Shown here piece by piece: positions 31,536 through 56,552 of a DNA stretch of 64,000 nucleotides. The first letter of the stretch is position 1. Every line of letters begins with the position of its first letter. The stretch spans positions 1 through 64,000 of the forward strand of contig PAQV01000005.1 of the NCBI GenBank assembly GCA_002709405.1. Reading direction: 5' to 3'. Source of the stretch: Paracoccaceae bacterium (GTDB lineage Bacteria > Pseudomonadota > Alphaproteobacteria > Rhodobacterales > Rhodobacteraceae). The translations under genes were made by a program, and so were the position numbers. The notes beneath the pieces are model-generated. The model saw nothing but the letters and a program-made list of their open reading frames with translations, searched no databases and was not told where the DNA came from.

Positions 31536-32270
31536 ATGACCTATTGCGTTGGAATGCGACTGGATCGCGGGTTGGTCTTCATGTCCGACACGCGCACGAA
31601 TGCCGGGCTGGATAACATTGCCACGGCCCGCAAGATGCACACGTGGGAAGTGCCCGGCGACCGGGTCATCACGCTGATGACCGCCGGCAACCTGGCCACG
31701 ACCCAATCCGTGGTGGGCATCCTCGATGAACGGACCAAGGCGCCGGGGGACCGGTCTCCGTCGATCCTGCAATCGCCGTCGATGTTCCAGATCGCGCGCG
31801 AGGTCGGCAAGACCCTGAAAGAGGTCATCCAGTCCAATTCCGACAGCGGGGCCGAGGCCGCGGCCTTCGGGGCGACGATGATCCTGGGCGGCCAGATCAA
31901 GGGCAGCGCGCCGCGCCTGTTCCTGATCTATCCCGAGGGCAACTTTATCGAGGCGTCCGAGGACAACCCGTTCTTCCAGATCGGCGAAACCAAGTACGGC
32001 AAGCCGATCCTGGTGCGGGCCTTCGACCGCGAGGCGAGCTTTGAAAATGCCATCAAGCTGCTGCTGGTCAGCTTCGATTCGACGATCAAGTCCAACCTGT
32101 CGGTCGGCCTCCCCATCGACTACGTGACCTATAGCGGCGACAGCCTGCGGTTTGGCGAACAGGGGCGGATCCTCGACAGCGACCCGTATTTCCAAGAAAT
32201 TTCAAACGGTTGGGGAGAGGCGCTGAAATCCGCCTTCAGCCAGTTGCCGGATTTCGCCTTTCCGGCCTGA
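31536..32270 (+). CDS. Anbu, proteasome-type N-terminal-threonine hydrolase
   Basis: 244 residues. Ancestral beta-subunit-like member of the proteasome/HslV family. After removal of Met, Thr1 becomes the nucleophile (MTYCVGMRLDRGLVFMSDTRT); Asp17 lies in MSDTRT and Lys32 in TARKM, the expected catalytic positions. The C-terminal extension relative to HslV is normal for Anbu. Start ATG 31536 was chosen because the mature protein must begin with Thr; ATG 31524 would bury it. No ATPase unfoldase is nearby, in line with other Anbu loci. True substrate is not known. Confidence 0.9.
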   Translation: MTYCVGMRLDRGLVFMSDTRTNAGLDNIATARKMHTWEVPGDRVITLMTAGNLATTQSVVGILDERTKAPGDRSPSILQSPSMFQIAREVGKTLKEVIQSNSDSGAEAAAFGATMILGGQIKGSAPRLFLIYPEGNFIEASEDNPFFQIGETKYGKPILVRAFDREASFENAIKLLLVSFDSTIKSNLSVGLPIDYVTYSGDSLRFGEQGRILDSDPYFQEISNGWGEALKSAFSQLPDFAFPA

Positions 32271-32323
32271 CACCTGGCGAACCGCGCCAGCGTGCCAAGT
32301 CGGCGCAGTTTCCGGGGCGGGTC

Positions 32324-32354
32324 TTGACCTTCCAGCTACTGGAACCCCTATCTG
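32324..32354 (+). promoter_or_regulatory. CueR-type copA promoter with 19-bp spacer
   Basis: -35 TTGACC (32324-32329), 19-base spacer, -10 TATCTG (32349-32354). Inside the spacer is the dyad TTCCAG-CTA-CTGGAA (32330-32344). MerR-family activators untwist exactly this overlong spacer. The predicted transcript start falls at about 32361, the A of the copA ATG. Confidence 0.8.
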
Positions 32355-32360
32355 AGGGGC

Positions 32361-34841
32361 ATGACACAGAACGCCGCCTCCCCGCTTCATCTGCCCATAA
32401 CCGGGATCACCTGCGCCGGATGTGCGCGCCGTGTTGAAACGGCGCTGGCCGAGGTGCCCGGGGTGCAATCGGCCCATGTCAACGTCGCGACGCACCGCGC
32501 AACCGTCAGCCCGGGGGACCTCAGCCTGCCCACCCTGGTCGAGGCCCTCGACCGCGCGGGCTACCCTTTGGCCCAGGCCGAAGTCACGCTCGACCTCGAC
32601 GGCATGAGCTGCGCGGGATGCGCACGCCGGGCCCAAACCGCCCTGGCAGAGGCGCCCGGCGTCATTGCGGCCGAGGTCAACTTTGCCACCCGCGCCGCCC
32701 GCGTGCGCTACCTGGATGGCGAGACCACGCCCGAGGCCCTGGGCGCGGCGTCGGCCAAGGCCGGCTATCCCGGAACCGTTCATGCCGAGGACACCGGCCA
32801 GCGCGCCGCCGACGAGGCCGAAACCGCCCGCCGGTCCATGCTGCTGGCCCTGGCCCTGACCCTGCCGGTCTTCCTGCTGGAAATGACCGGCCATGTGATT
32901 CCCGCCTTCCATCACTGGATTGCCGCGACCATCGGCACCACCACGTCCTGGACCATCCAGGCGGTGCTGGCCACCTTGGTCCTGGCCGGGCCGGGGCGCG
33001 ATTTCTTCCGCCAGGGCCTGCCGCGCCTGCTCAAGGGCGAACCGGACATGAACTCGCTGGTGGCCCTTGGCTCTGGCGCGGCGTGGATCTTTTCCATGGT
33101 CGCCCTGCTTGCGCCCGCCGTGCTGCCGGACGGCACCCGCGCCGTCTTCTTCGAGGCCGCCGCCGTCATCGTCACGCTCATCCTCACCGGCCGTTGGCTG
33201 GAAACCCGGGCCAGGGGGCGCACCGGCGCGGCCATCCGCAAGCTGATCGCCCTGCGGCCGGACACCGCCCTGGTCGACACCCCCGACGGCCCCGAGGATC
33301 GCCCGGTGGACCGCCTGCAGGTGGGCGACACGCTGATCGTGCCCCCGGGCCGCAGCCTGGCCGCGGATGGAGAGGTCATTTCCGGCGAAAGCTATATCGA
33401 CGAATCGATGATCTCGGGCGAGCCAGTGCCGGTTCTGCGCGGCCCCGGCGCTGGGGTCGTGGGCGGCACGGTCAACGGGTCGGGCACCCTGCGCGTGCGG
33501 GTCACCCAGGTCGGGGCCGACAGCGTGCTGTCGCGCATCGTCGCCATGGTCGAAGAGGCCCAGGGCGCGCGCCTGCCGATCCAGGCCCTGGCCGATACGG
33601 TGGTGCGGTACTTTGTGCCCGCCGTCCTGGCCGTGGCCGTGGTCACGTGCCTCACCTGGCTGTCCTTCGGCCCGTCTCCGGCCCTGTCCCACGCGCTGGT
33701 TGCCGCGATTTCCGTCCTGATCATCGCCTGCCCCTGTGCCATGGGCCTGGCCACGCCGACCTCGATCATGGTGGGCACGGGCCGGGCGGCCGAACTTGGC
33801 GTGCTGTTCCGCAAGGGCGCCGCGCTGGAAACGCTGGCCGGGGTCCGGGCCGTGGCCTTCGACAAGACCGGTACGCTCACCGAGGGGCGTCCGACCCTGA
33901 CGGCCCTGTCGGCCATCGACGGCTGGACCGAGGACCGGGCCCTGGGCCTGGCCGCCGCGGTCGAGAGCAGCTCCGACCACCCGCTGGCCCGGGCCATCCT
34001 GACCGCCGCCGAAACGCGCGGGCTGACCCTTCCGCAAGCGCAGGACGAACAGGCCCTGCCGGGCTATGGCCTGTCGGCCACAATCGAAGGTCAGCGCATC
34101 CTGCTGGGCGCGCCGCGCCTGATGCAGCGCGAGGGCATTGCGTTGCCCTTTGATCCCGACCCGGACGTCACGCCGGTCTGGCTGGCGGTCGATGGGCAGG
34201 CGGTGGCGCACCTGGGTGTCACCGACCCGGTCAAGCCGGACGCCGCCGCCGCCATAGCCGCCCTGCGGCAGGCCGGGGTGCAGGTTGCCATGATCACCGG
34301 CGATGCCAGCGCGCCCGCTAGGGCGATTGCCGAAAAGCTGGGCATCTCTCATGTCGAGGCCGAGGTCCTGCCCGATGGCAAGCGCGACGCGGTGCGCCGG
34401 TTGCAGGCGCAACTGGGGCGCGTGGCCTTTGTCGGCGACGGCATCAATGACGCGCCAGCCCTGGCCGAGGCCGACGTGGGCCTGGCCATGGGCACCGGCA
34501 CCGACATCGCGGTCGAGGCGGCCGACGTGGTGATGGTCTCGGGGGCCGTGGCCGGGGCGGTCAACGCCCATCACATGGCCCGGCGGACCCTGGCGAACAT
34601 CCGTCAGAACCTGTTCTGGGCCTTCGCCTACAACACCGCGTTGATCCCGGTGGCCGCCGGCGTGCTGTACCCGCTGACCGGAACGCTGCTGTCGCCGATG
34701 CTGGCGGCCGGGGCGATGGCCCTGTCCTCGGTCTTCGTGATCACGAACGCGCTGCGCCTGCGCCGGGTGCGACCGGCCCTGGCCGAGCCCACGCCGCGCG
34801 TGCCGGAGGCCCGGACGGCCAAGCGGCCGGTGATGCCATGA
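32361..34841 (+). CDS. copA: Copper-exporting P1B-type ATPase
   Basis: 826 residues. Pumps Cu(I) out of the cytoplasm. Two N-terminal metal-binding domains with CxxC: GITCAGC (Cys18, Cys21) and GMSCAGC (Cys84, Cys87). Membrane Cu site Cys457-Pro-Cys459 in IACPCAMGLATPTS; phosphorylated Asp501 in DKTGTLTEG; TGD block AMITGDASAPA; hinge GDGINDAPAL. Eight transmembrane helices expected. GAGGGG sits directly against the ATG, too close to be a useful ribosome site, consistent with a leaderless message. The stop overlaps the cueR start by 4 bases. Confidence 0.94.
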   Translation: MTQNAASPLHLPITGITCAGCARRVETALAEVPGVQSAHVNVATHRATVSPGDLSLPTLVEALDRAGYPLAQAEVTLDLDGMSCAGCARRAQTALAEAPGVIAAEVNFATRAARVRYLDGETTPEALGAASAKAGYPGTVHAEDTGQRAADEAETARRSMLLALALTLPVFLLEMTGHVIPAFHHWIAATIGTTTSWTIQAVLATLVLAGPGRDFFRQGLPRLLKGEPDMNSLVALGSGAAWIFSMVALLAPAVLPDGTRAVFFEAAAVIVTLILTGRWLETRARGRTGAAIRKLIALRPDTALVDTPDGPEDRPVDRLQVGDTLIVPPGRSLAADGEVISGESYIDESMISGEPVPVLRGPGAGVVGGTVNGSGTLRVRVTQVGADSVLSRIVAMVEEAQGARLPIQALADTVVRYFVPAVLAVAVVTCLTWLSFGPSPALSHALVAAISVLIIACPCAMGLATPTSIMVGTGRAAELGVLFRKGAALETLAGVRAVAFDKTGTLTEGRPTLTALSAIDGWTEDRALGLAAAVESSSDHPLARAILTAAETRGLTLPQAQDEQALPGYGLSATIEGQRILLGAPRLMQREGIALPFDPDPDVTPVWLAVDGQAVAHLGVTDPVKPDAAAAIAALRQAGVQVAMITGDASAPARAIAEKLGISHVEAEVLPDGKRDAVRRLQAQLGRVAFVGDGINDAPALAEADVGLAMGTGTDIAVEAADVVMVSGAVAGAVNAHHMARRTLANIRQNLFWAFAYNTALIPVAAGVLYPLTGTLLSPMLAAGAMALSSVFVITNALRLRRVRPALAEPTPRVPEARTAKRPVMP

Positions 34842-35239
34842 ACATCGGCGCCGCCGCCCGGCGCACGGGCCTGCCCTCCAAGACGATCCGCTATTACGAA
34901 GAGATCGGCCTGATCCGCCCCGCCCGGGATTCCAACGGCTACCGGGACTTTTCCGAAACCGACGTGCACAAGCTGGCGTTCCTCGGCCGGGCCCGGTCCT
35001 TTGACTTCTCGATCGAGGATTGCCGCTCGCTGCTGGCGCTCTATGAGGACAGTTCGCGCGCGTCGGGCGACGTCAAGCGCATTGCCCAGGGGCACCTTGA
35101 CCGCATCGACGCCCGCCTGGCCGAGCTGAACGAGATGCGCCGCACCCTGTCTTCGCTGGTGGACACCTGCGCCGGAGACGGCCGTCCCGACTGCCCGATC
35201 CTGCAGGACCTGGCGGCGGAAGAGACTGATTTGTCTTGA
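34838..35239 (+). CDS. cueR: Cu(I)-responsive MerR-family activator CueR
   Basis: 133 residues. MerR DNA-binding domain MNIGAAARRTGLPSKTIRYYEEIGLIRPARDSNGYR, dimerisation helix, and a C-terminal metal loop with Cys111 and Cys119 (CAGDGRPDC), spacing as in E. coli CueR. Ser76 in RASGDVK is the residue that marks monovalent-metal sensors. It is coupled to copA and would activate the promoter at 32324. Confidence 0.92.
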   Translation: MNIGAAARRTGLPSKTIRYYEEIGLIRPARDSNGYRDFSETDVHKLAFLGRARSFDFSIEDCRSLLALYEDSSRASGDVKRIAQGHLDRIDARLAELNEMRRTLSSLVDTCAGDGRPDCPILQDLAAEETDLS

Positions 35240-35520
35240 TTTTTGCCGCAATGCAGCGTTGATGCTGCGGTGCGGAATGGGGCATATCGTCAGGGTGAAA
35301 AGATATGCGTCCGGTATATTTATGTATACGATACAACGCATTATACACGGGCTTCCCATGCGGTCAAACTCATAGCAGCTATGCGCAGAACCCGGTTGTT
35401 CCAGCAGCCAAAACGCCAATATTCTGCATTGCAGCACAACAGGGCACACCAGCGCCGAACCGGGCGCTTCCGCAACATTCCGGGCCAGACCGCCCGTGAC
35501 CGACCGATAGGACGATGAAG

Positions 35521-35862
35521 ATGAAAACCCTCGCAACCGCTTTTGCCCTGGCCGCCATCGCTGGCGCCGCCTCCGCAGACCAGATCACCCTGACCCAGCC
35601 GATGTCGGGCGCAACCCTGCACGACGGTGGCACCGACATGGCCGTCTACATGACCGAAGTCGATGCCGGCCTGGAAGTCGTGGCCACCTACACGCCCGCC
35701 GAAACCTATGCGCCGATGCGCGTGGCCATGGTGCTGGCCGATGGCGATGACGTCAGCTTTGGCCTGCCCGGCGCACCCGGCGCGCATTACACCTTTGCCC
35801 GCGCCGGCGAAGACGTGACCGTGACCGCAAGCCCGGTCGGGATCCGCTTCGCAAGCAACTGA
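35521..35862 (+). CDS. Small secreted protein of unknown function
   Basis: 113 residues (115 from ATG 35515). Signal peptide MKTLATAFALAAIAGAASA, then a beta-rich mature part: DQITLTQPMSGATLHDGG, DMAVYMTEVDAGLEVVATYTPAE, VAMVLADGDDVSFGLPGAPG, AHYTFARAGEDVTVTASPVGIRF. No Cys or obvious metal-site Met/His cluster, so I do not assign a copper role despite its place after cueR. The 281-base upstream gap is AT-rich near 35300-35345 and likely holds its promoter. AGGA is 8 bases from ATG 35521. Confidence 0.72.
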   Translation: MKTLATAFALAAIAGAASADQITLTQPMSGATLHDGGTDMAVYMTEVDAGLEVVATYTPAETYAPMRVAMVLADGDDVSFGLPGAPGAHYTFARAGEDVTVTASPVGIRFASN

Positions 35863-35873
35863 TATCAAGGTTT

Positions 35874-35953
35874 GGTCCCGGCTCCTCCTCCTCCCGCCTG
35901 GATCAATTTCGACCGCCGCGCCTCCTCCTCCCTGGCGCGGCGGTTTCTTTTTG
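35874..35953 (+). ncRNA. Candidate CcsR-type small RNA (two stem-loops with CCUCCUCCC loops)
   Basis: Two adjacent hairpins. Stem 1: 35874-35882 with 35896-35904 (nine pairs including one G-U and one mismatch), loop TCCTCCTCCTCCC. Stem 2: CCGCCGCGCC (35913-35922) with GGCGCGGCGG (35934-35943), loop TCCTCCTCCCT, followed by TTTCTTTTT, a Rho-independent terminator. Both loops carry an anti-ribosome-site CCUCC core. This matches the described layout of CcsR RNAs of Rhodobacter, which are processed from the 3' end of a small protein gene. Here the host message would be the secreted protein gene at 35521. Confidence 0.7.
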
Positions 35954-35984
35954 TCTGAAGGCCGGTTTGGTCAGAGGGCTTTGG

Positions 35985-36719
35985 TCAGAGGATGAGGGGG
36001 CTGACCCGCGCGGTTCCGTCGAACGCCGCATGATGACGCAGCCAGCCCGTCGCGGATCTTTCCAGCACACACTGGCCTTCCCGGAACGGGTTGGTGCACA
36101 GATCGGCGATGCCCCTGTCCCCATCCCAATGGCCAAAGGCGTATTCGGTGTCGAAATGCGCAGGCAGACCGGCGGGGATGTCGCCGTTTTCCAGTTCTTC
36201 TACCATCGCCCCCGTGGCCTCGGCGTCGAGCCGGCCCAGGCCCATCAGGAACATGTCGTCCGACAGCACCAGCACCCCGGTCAGATCTCCCGAACGCACC
36301 CGATGCGCCGTCAGCGGCGGTGGTGCGCCGGCCAGCCAGCGTTCGCGGTACTCGGCATGGACGCCGTCCTCGATCAGCGCGCCATCCTCGGCGAACCACA
36401 TCTGTCCGGCGTCGATCCCGTCGGGGAGCCCATGCCAGTTGATCTCGCGCGCCCAGGTGCAGATGCTGTCGGCAACGGTGATGGTCCCGGCAAAGCCCTC
36501 GGCCTTCATCAGGCCCAGCAGGGCCCCGGCATCCAGCTCGGCCAGGCAGCGCGCGCCATCGGGCAGGGGCCGGTGGACCGGAATGCGCAGATCGGCATAA
36601 AGCGCCCCCGCCTGGGCCCAGAACACCCGGGTCGAGGCGTCTTCGAACCCCGGCGCGCGGATCCAGTCCCGCCGCCACAGACCTTGCAGGGCGTCCGGCC
36701 CGATCACGTCGCCCGTCAC
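35985..36719 (-). CDS. Conserved protein of unknown function
   Basis: 244 residues, GTG start at 36719 overlapping the stop of the cysteine hydrolase (GTGA). I do not recognise a named family. Visible blocks: LWRRDWIRAPGFEDASTRVFWAQAGALYADLRIP, FAGTITVADSICTWAREINWHG, GQMWFAEDGALIEDGVHAEYRERW and LVLSDDMFLMGLGRLD. Alternating beta strands suggest a barrel-like fold (inference). No signal peptide. Last gene of the polyamine-type importer operon, so it may act on the imported compound or its product. Confidence 0.7.
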   Translation of the reverse strand: MTGDVIGPDALQGLWRRDWIRAPGFEDASTRVFWAQAGALYADLRIPVHRPLPDGARCLAELDAGALLGLMKAEGFAGTITVADSICTWAREINWHGLPDGIDAGQMWFAEDGALIEDGVHAEYRERWLAGAPPPLTAHRVRSGDLTGVLVLSDDMFLMGLGRLDAEATGAMVEELENGDIPAGLPAHFDTEYAFGHWDGDRGIADLCTNPFREGQCVLERSATGWLRHHAAFDGTARVSPLIL

Positions 36720-48887: not shown

Positions 48888-49993
48888 TGGCGGACATGAC
48901 GGCGGCATCGCAGACGCGGTCCCGTGTGGCCCTGGCCAAATGGCTGCCACGGCTCGAGGCCGTCGTCATCCCGCTGGGCGCGCTTGTCGCGGGCCTGGCC
49001 GTGTTCTCGGTCTTCCTGCTTCTGCTTGGCAAGTCGCCCGTGGATTTCTATGCGCTGATCTACAAGGCCGGGTTCAGCTCGGCCTTTTCGTGGCAGAATA
49101 CCCTGTCGCGCGTGTCGCCCCTGCTGTTTGCCGGCCTGTGCGTCGCCCTGCCGGCCCGGCTGGGCCTGGTTGTCATCGGCGGGGAAGGGGCCATCGCGCT
49201 GGGCGGCCTGGCCGCCGCCGTCACCGGGTTGGCCTTTGCCTGGGCCCCGTCGGCCCTGGGCTTCATCGCCATGGGCCTTGCGGCCATGGTCATCGGCGGG
49301 GCCTGGATCGGGGCCGTCGGCTGGCTGCGCATCCGGCGGGGCGTGAACGAAACCATCGGCTCGCTGCTGATGGCCTACATCGCCATCGCCCTTATGAATC
49401 ACTGGGTCGAGGGCCTCTTCCGCGATCCCGCCTCGCTCAACAAGCCCTCCACCGCGCCCTTGCCGGACCATCTGCGCATCGGTGACATGCCGGTGGGGAT
49501 CGACGTGCACTGGGGCTTCTTCTTTGGCCTCCTGGCCTGTGTCCTCGCCTGGATCCTGACCGACCGCACCACCATCGGCTTCGCCGCCCGCATCGCCGGA
49601 GACAACATCCGCGCGGCCCAAGTCCAGGGCCTGCCCGTCGGTCCGCTGGTCATCGGCTTCACCGCCCTGGGCGGCGCGGCGGCCGGGCTGGCCGGCCTGT
49701 TCGAGGTCGCCGCCATCCACGGGGCGGCCAATGCCTCGCTGGTGGTGGGGTACGGCTATACCGGCATCCTCGTGGCCTTCCTGGCCCGCCACAACCCGCT
49801 GGCCATCATCCCCGTTGCCATCCTTCTGGCCGGGTTCGAGGCCTCCTCCGGCCTGGTCCAGCGCCGCATGGACCTGCCCGACGCGACCATCCTGGTGATG
49901 GAGGGCATCGTCTTCGTCGCCATCCTGTTGTCGGAAACGCTGTACGGGCGGATCGGCATCTTCAAGGCATCCTTCTGGAGGGCCGACCCATGA
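48887..49993 (+). CDS. ABC permease, BMP/nucleoside importer type 1
   Basis: 368 residues, about ten helices. BPD_transp_2 family: LARLG-like block ALPARLGLVVIGGEGAIALGG, RIRRGVNETIGSLLMAYIAI, FAARIAGDNIRAAQVQGLPV. Start overlaps the binding-protein stop by one base (TGATG). Imports the ligand with the next permease and the ATPase at 53663. Confidence 0.88.
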   Translation: MADMTAASQTRSRVALAKWLPRLEAVVIPLGALVAGLAVFSVFLLLLGKSPVDFYALIYKAGFSSAFSWQNTLSRVSPLLFAGLCVALPARLGLVVIGGEGAIALGGLAAAVTGLAFAWAPSALGFIAMGLAAMVIGGAWIGAVGWLRIRRGVNETIGSLLMAYIAIALMNHWVEGLFRDPASLNKPSTAPLPDHLRIGDMPVGIDVHWGFFFGLLACVLAWILTDRTTIGFAARIAGDNIRAAQVQGLPVGPLVIGFTALGGAAAGLAGLFEVAAIHGAANASLVVGYGYTGILVAFLARHNPLAIIPVAILLAGFEASSGLVQRRMDLPDATILVMEGIVFVAILLSETLYGRIGIFKASFWRADP

Positions 49994-56475: not shown

Positions 56476-56552
56476 TGGTCGGAGTAGCAGGATTCGAACC
56501 TACGACCCCTGCCTCCCGAAGACAGTGCTCTACCAGGCTGAGCTATACTCCG
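56476..56552 (-). tRNA. tRNA-Pro (CGG anticodon)
   Basis: 77 bases including the encoded CCA. Acceptor stem CGGAGTA/TACTCCG, D-arm AGCTCAGCCTGGTAGAGC, anticodon stem CTGTC/GGCAG with loop TTCGGGA (anticodon CGG, reads CCG), T-arm GTAGGTTCGAATCCTAC-like. All four arms pair. CCG is a common Pro codon in this GC-rich genome. Confidence 0.93.

Follow-up and report, generated by a model that had tools for sequence, protein, structure and literature searches.

How does a small RNA with the looks of the CcsR family come to lie behind the gene of a small secreted protein, and which signal is likely to switch it on? The RNA in question belongs to a stretch of 64,000 nt from the genome of a Paracoccaceae bacterium (the window). 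The initial annotation had described here two hairpins with anti-ribosome-site loops and a terminator, placed next to copA-cueR and not behind a DUF1127 gene, and had considered release of the RNA from the 3' end of the preceding gene and had named oxidative and copper stress as conditions under which to look for it. Our analysis supports the RNA and its setting. The switch, here and in many relatives, is likely PhaR and not copper, as judged from the sequence comparisons presented below.

The two-hairpin RNA element

Both hairpins and the terminator were found on the plus strand as described (Table 1), and each hairpin exposes an anti-Shine-Dalgarno (anti-SD) loop with CUCCUCCC. The fold energy of the region 35860-35960 is -41.4 kcal/mol, while shuffled sequences have a mean of -25.9 kcal/mol (z -5.07), and none of 200 shuffles equalled the natural sequence.

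Table 1. Features of the host gene, its upstream region and the RNA element (positions in the window).
Feature	Position	Strand	Description	Basis
cueR	34838-35239	+	Context neighbour; Pfam MerR	
Imperfect PhaR-like palindrome	35246-35256		CCGCAATGCAG; just behind cueR	
Imperfect PhaR-like palindrome	35265-35275		CTGCGGTGCGG	
Degenerate upstream element	35371-35378		CATAGCAG; GCAG 21 nt before the -35 TTG	
Putative host promoter	35396-35424	+	-35 TTGTTC at 35396-35401, -10 at about 35418-35424, touching the operator	Inferred, three-species comparison
Candidate PhaR-type operator	35424-35434		CTGCATTGCAG; exact; TTCTGCATTGCAGCA including flanks (35422-35436); at the putative -10 or immediately 3' of it	
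Host gene	35515-35862	+	115-aa protein, signal-peptide-like start, predicted all-beta	ORF, Pfam, AF2 model
Hairpin 1	35872-35906	+	10 pairs, one C-U stem mismatch; loop UCCUCCUCCUCCC (35883-35895)	Sequence, folding
Hairpin 2	35911-35945	+	12 unbroken pairs; loop UCCUCCUCCCU (35923-35933)	Sequence, folding
Intrinsic terminator, U-rich tail	35946-35952	+	UCUUUUU	Read from sequence

The covariance search proposed in the initial annotation supported the likeness to CcsR and did not support formal membership. In E-value mode, the Rfam model of ar14 (RF02344) matched the element with 42.1 bits (E 3e-6; gathering score 58.8 missed) and that of ar7 with 27.6 bits (E 0.0025; below the gathering score), and CcsR1 (RF02791) matched with 32.0 bits and E 8.6e-6, missing its gathering score of 65.3. 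At the gathering level, a scan of the whole window gave no match to the element. The sole match of that scan is a tRNA gene on the minus strand (56479-56552). Since the CcsR1 threshold was reached in just 10 of 290 genomes of the family, the name CcsR rests on likeness.

Hairpins of this kind can be counted strictly, as an unbroken stem of at least 6 pairs beside a CTCCTCC loop. In the window, hairpin 2 and an unrelated hairpin at 49837 pass this count, and hairpin 1 fails because its stem is interrupted. As 1.17 such hairpins are expected by chance per random window of the same dinucleotide make-up, a single one is within chance, and the significance comes from the Rfam E-values, the fold and the paralogues. 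A MAFFT alignment of ten units placed hairpin 1 poorly, and the Rfam models served for the family comparison.

Among known RNAs, CcsR1-4 of R. sphaeroides (RF02791; CIN1 locus with the DUF1127 protein CcaF1) share with the window RNA the two CCUCCUCCC-loop hairpins in a 3' UTR and the terminator at the end. The best Rfam match, ar14/NfeR1 of rhizobia, has anti-SD hairpins as well, three of them in place of two, and is reported to be regulated by LsrB and NtrC (PMC10746234). The cuckoo RNA family (Reinkensmeier and Giegerich 2015), compared here by its description (PMC3927594, PMC10746234), combines the anti-SD loop motif with diverged stems. Cuckoo-type features in the broad sense, consecutive CCUCCUCCC-loop hairpins with variable stems, are indeed present in the window. 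The element thus resembles CcsR/cuckoo RNAs, outside formal membership in Rfam CcsR1 and ar14, and is probably a descendant of this family.

Host gene and conservation

The AF2 model of the host protein has a mean pLDDT of 84 and 8 strands, and a fold search with it against the PDB gave no match at E<=1e-3. The sole Pfam match, a weak one to YDG below the cut-off, was rejected, and the protein was left unnamed. Protein matches were found in 17 of 295 genomes of the family including its own (weakest E 4.8e-4) and in all three species of the genus; the contigs of named genomes gave no match. The paired part of the RNA element begins 9 nt past the host stop codon, so the window RNA is probably a 3'UTR-derived sRNA, in agreement with the release from the host 3' end considered at the outset. 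The CcsR RNAs of R. sphaeroides are described as 3'UTR-derived and processed by RNase E (PMC8625941, PMC8307010), which makes release plausible here. A sigma-70 scan of the plus strand from 35240 to 36000 detected no promoter of the RNA's own inside the gene; the proposed host promoter was likewise unlisted. The terminator scan was blind to hairpin 2 because it allowed loops of up to 8 only.

Conservation of the loops and stems, on which the initial annotation had made its proposal depend, is limited overall. One sister species (G239) has both hairpins 3' of the host gene, and the other (G295) has lost the anti-SD loop of hairpin 1 and kept the terminator, whose loop holds CUCCUCCUCC. CTCCTCC was absent from the 250 bp next to the stop codon in all 15 homologues outside the genus, several of which (L017, L023, L024, L025, L026) have ordinary terminator-like hairpins. 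Together with the quality of hairpin 2 and its U tail as a terminator, this would fit a reading in which the hairpins only end host transcription, and the CUCC loops are a functionless legacy of a duplicated CcsR unit. In G239, however, both loop motifs are kept (loop 2 reads UCUUCCUCCCU, with one base changed) despite stem changes which give an unbroken stem 1, and the whole window unit resembles ar14 and CcsR1. We regard a plain intrinsic terminator as unlikely.

Paralogues in the window genome

A search of the whole genome with the ar14 model resulted in 11 matches at E<=10, seven of them below 1e-4. In control genomes, matches occurred in 9 of 14 at E<=10 and in none of 14 at E<=0.001. Among them are the window copy, four full-length matches within a tandem array (contig C36), single units on C87 and C100, and a weaker unit on C54 (E 0.003). 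With 39.7-45.1 bits, the four array matches are close to the window copy (42.1 bits), and so the missed threshold is not peculiar to the latter. By eye and folding, the array comprises six two-hairpin units with 12 of the 35 CCTCCTCCC motifs of the genome. It lies directly 3' of a DUF1127 gene (Pfam), which is the arrangement reported for the CIN1 locus, where the CcsR array stands behind the DUF1127 gene (PMC10253847). No convincing gene was found directly in front of the C87 and C100 units, which seem to carry promoter-like sequence of their own. The C54 unit (49824-49917) has two hairpins with CTCC-rich loops and is without a U tail.

The window copy is a paralogue in a new genomic setting, with four sibling loci in the same genome. 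The DUF1127 linkage of CcsR1-4 is found in this genome at the C36 array, whereas the window RNA is a single unit behind an unrelated gene, whose product has no Pfam family. The initial annotation had anticipated the position behind an unrelated secreted-protein gene, and had missed the sibling loci and the PhaR-type operator of the promoter.

Putative promoter and candidate PhaR operator at the host gene

The promoter region of the host gene contains the exact regulon motif of PhaR, CTGCNNNGCAG. This motif is bound by PhaR of R. sphaeroides, which is drawn off to PHB granules, as reported in PMC12542648. PhaR is encoded in the window genome (G000:C77:6814-6996, PF07879, E 2.1e-27). An exact PhaR-type site at the -10 distinguishes the window promoter from CcsR1-4. 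The sequence TTCTGCNNNGCAGCA occurs eight times in the genome, its reversed control once. Three of the eight belong to the host gene of the window, the CcsR array and the phaC/phasin/phaR locus, the last assigned by Pfam with a phasin match under the cut-off; the surroundings of the other five were viewed as ORF lists only. At the C36 array, the PhaR-type site starts 105 bp before the ATG. The C87 and C100 units have palindromes with one mismatch starting 30 bp before a -35-like TTG, and the C54 unit is the one of the five loci without a PhaR-type site.

Of the 18 host-gene homologues compared, 11 have the exact palindrome in the promoter at a distance of up to 180 bp; the next best of 256 palindromic arms occurs in only 2. 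Outside the genus it is present in 8 of 15 homologues and absent from 7. The element CATAGCAG resembles CcsR operon promoters, which have GCAG at the same distance from the -35 TTG. Its counterparts in the sister species are weaker (GCGG, ACAG), and a role as an upstream promoter element is suggestive only. The intergenic stretch that holds CCGCAATGCAG in the window contains one exact palindrome each in the loci L013 (1224) and L029 (1257). On the minus strand of the window, a strong sigma-70-like promoter match (35340-35367; 11/12, TTGACC-16-TATAAT) points leftwards to cueR and is possibly antisense.

The suggested copper context did not withstand the comparison. The host gene has cueR and copA at most 1.5 kb away in 3/3 species of the genus vs 0/15 other homologues, and two patterns for a CueR-type box gave no hit in 32001-36000. 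The copper link was consequently rejected.

The palindrome before DUF1127-CcsR loci of relatives

Two sets of DUF1127 loci were searched for the palindrome up to 400 bp before the DUF1127 match. The first set, the best DUF1127 loci of 149 genomes, comprised 29 loci besides the own one; 19 of them have the exact palindrome, 7 have it with one mismatch and 3 lack it. The second set consisted of 80 named loci, the best 80 of 319, with 50 exact palindromes, 21 with one mismatch and 9 loci without; here the next best of 256 arms was found in 6 of 80. Eight loci are common to both sets, leaving 101 distinct ones. With the second set restricted to the best 80 of 319, the exact palindrome precedes 61 of the 101 distinct loci; among the 89 array loci the number is 56. 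In control stretches it was present in 3 of 240. Since 61 of the 240 control stretches meet the one-mismatch criterion, one mismatch alone is weak evidence.

The palindrome has a preferred position. Its start is located 28 or 29 bp before the -35 TTG in 70 of the 82 distinct loci that have both elements (the second set again being the best 80 of 319). Across the -35 and the spacer lies a second half-palindrome with the pattern TTGTGC-N3..5-GCAG, for which 150,426 control bases gave 5 hits. For S. meliloti phaP1 and phaP2, a -35 flanked by two palindromes is reported (PMC12542648). Of the three operons with the top RF02791 scores (L186-L188), one has the first palindrome without a mismatch and two have it with a single mismatch. 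The same palindrome is the commonest of the 256 arms upstream of phaR (1500 bp searched), with 19 of 30 loci against 10 of 30 for the next arm, and 13 of these 19 loci have it as pairs 27-30 bp apart.

Exact upstream palindromes are also present at two DUF1127 genes, L049 (identical to L112) and L122, whose 700 bp of downstream sequence contain no CTCCTCC. The operator may therefore extend to DUF1127 genes beyond those with an array.

Operator elements and the presence of PhaR

PhaR (PF07879) is absent from 6 of 291 genomes of the family. Two of the PhaR-less genomes, G003 and G150, keep a DUF1127-CcsR array, and by the criteria used here neither has either operator element. Among the named loci (best 80 of 319), PhaR status was determined for 50 from 49 genomes, all nine site-less loci included. 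Three of the 49 genomes lack PhaR, those of L127, L137 and L139, and all three loci are without the site. Altogether, 82 loci with PhaR status were reduced to 77 by deduplication and to 66 array loci by dropping 11 with fewer than two CTCCTCC motifs downstream. Either operator element is present in 60 of the 61 array loci with PhaR vs 0 of 5 without (Fisher P 6.7e-7). As three of the PhaR-less loci come from close relatives, the five stand for at most three independent losses (P ~1e-4, calculated by hand). When only exact palindromes are considered, the numbers are 37 of 61 and 0 of 5, a weak association (P 0.013). The 61 PhaR-positive array loci include 56 with at most one mismatch in the site and 58 with the second element; L042 is the sole one without an operator element.

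These data bear on the alternative that the window RNA is an ordinary CcsR made under RpoH/oxidative or copper stress, and that the palindromes are part of a sigma-factor promoter and no PhaR operator. The R. sphaeroides CcsR operon is reported to be driven by an RpoHI/RpoHII promoter (PMC10253847), the palindrome keeps its preferred distance from the -35, and the host gene adjoins copA-cueR. However, the palindromes are missing in all five PhaR-less array loci, including that of G150, which retains TTGTGC at the -35. Further, promoters with another layout, those of phasin genes and of the host gene, carry the same motif, and the copper neighbourhood is, as described above, confined to the genus. 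We consider an ordinary stress-induced CcsR quite improbable.

Proposed mechanism

The most likely reading of the comparisons is that PHB status controls the CcsR-type RNA family through PhaR. In the window, the host gene would be transcribed from its putative promoter, with PhaR bound as a repressor, and the RNA element would serve as both the terminator and the 3' UTR of the small secreted-protein gene. Formation of PHB granules would titrate PhaR away, and host mRNA and RNA would be made together. RNase E, perhaps with the aid of a DUF1127 protein, would then release the two-hairpin RNA by cleavage. Through its CUCCUCCC loops the RNA would pair with the ribosome-binding sites of target mRNAs, resulting in silencing. 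Loops of this type in NfeR1 are reported to silence mRNAs at the ribosome-binding site (PMC10746234), and this mechanism is proposed for the window RNA by analogy. Other targets of the PhaR switch would be the DUF1127-CcsR array and the two free-standing paralogues of the window genome, together with many DUF1127-CcsR operons across the family. The levels of CcsR-type RNAs could then depend jointly on PHB status and on stress sigma factors, whose action is established for R. sphaeroides; nothing in our data contradicts such joint control.

As a whole, the explanation that a PhaR-controlled host transcript yields a cuckoo/CcsR-type anti-SD RNA, under a PhaR switch common to CcsR operons, seems moderately probable to us. 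A broader reading is that the CcsR/CIN1 anti-SD RNAs of the Rhodobacteraceae in the broad sense belong directly to the PhaR regulon. Two operators would then frame the -35 of the DUF1127-CcsR operons, PHB would gate a global translational silencer, and RNA copies would have spread to further transcripts under PhaR control, that of the window among them. We hold this broader reading to be probable. It is very improbable that the element acts in cis, its loops pairing with the ribosome-binding site of its own mRNA and controlling host translation or decay: the predicted fold leaves the loops unpaired, and they share a transcript with the host SD, but only a short AGGA-type SD precedes the host start, and the C87 and C100 copies have their own promoter-like sequence.

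A parallel exists in Sinorhizobium meliloti, where PhaR (AniA) is reported to repress the small RNA gene mmgR (PMC12542648). MmgR is a different RNA from the window RNA, and its circuit has experimental support. Our literature searches retrieved no paper joining CcsR or DUF1127 with PhaR control; key CcsR papers are outside their coverage, so novelty is unproven, and the PhaR-CcsR link may be a new regulatory point. If true, a PhaR promoter switch would tie CcsR-type RNAs to a polymer store which draws on acetyl-CoA, and one physiological signal would reach several scattered RNA copies, in parallel to the rhizobial PhaR-MmgR circuit with a different RNA.

CcsR-like RNAs at other loci

In genome G006, a three-hairpin CcsR-like RNA (L073, contig C13) is located away from the DUF1127 matches of this genome. 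PhaR-like sites are present 71 and 49 bp before its Rfam match, and the first one is exact. In G021, G022 and G020, hairpins, one or two of them with CCUCC-type loops, follow immediately after genes for ammonium transporters (L068, L074 and L075, respectively; Pfam Ammonium_transp, E<=3.5e-102). The 450 bp before these hairpins contain no PhaR-like palindrome. The 3' UTR of ammonium transporter genes is possibly another home of CcsR-type RNA.
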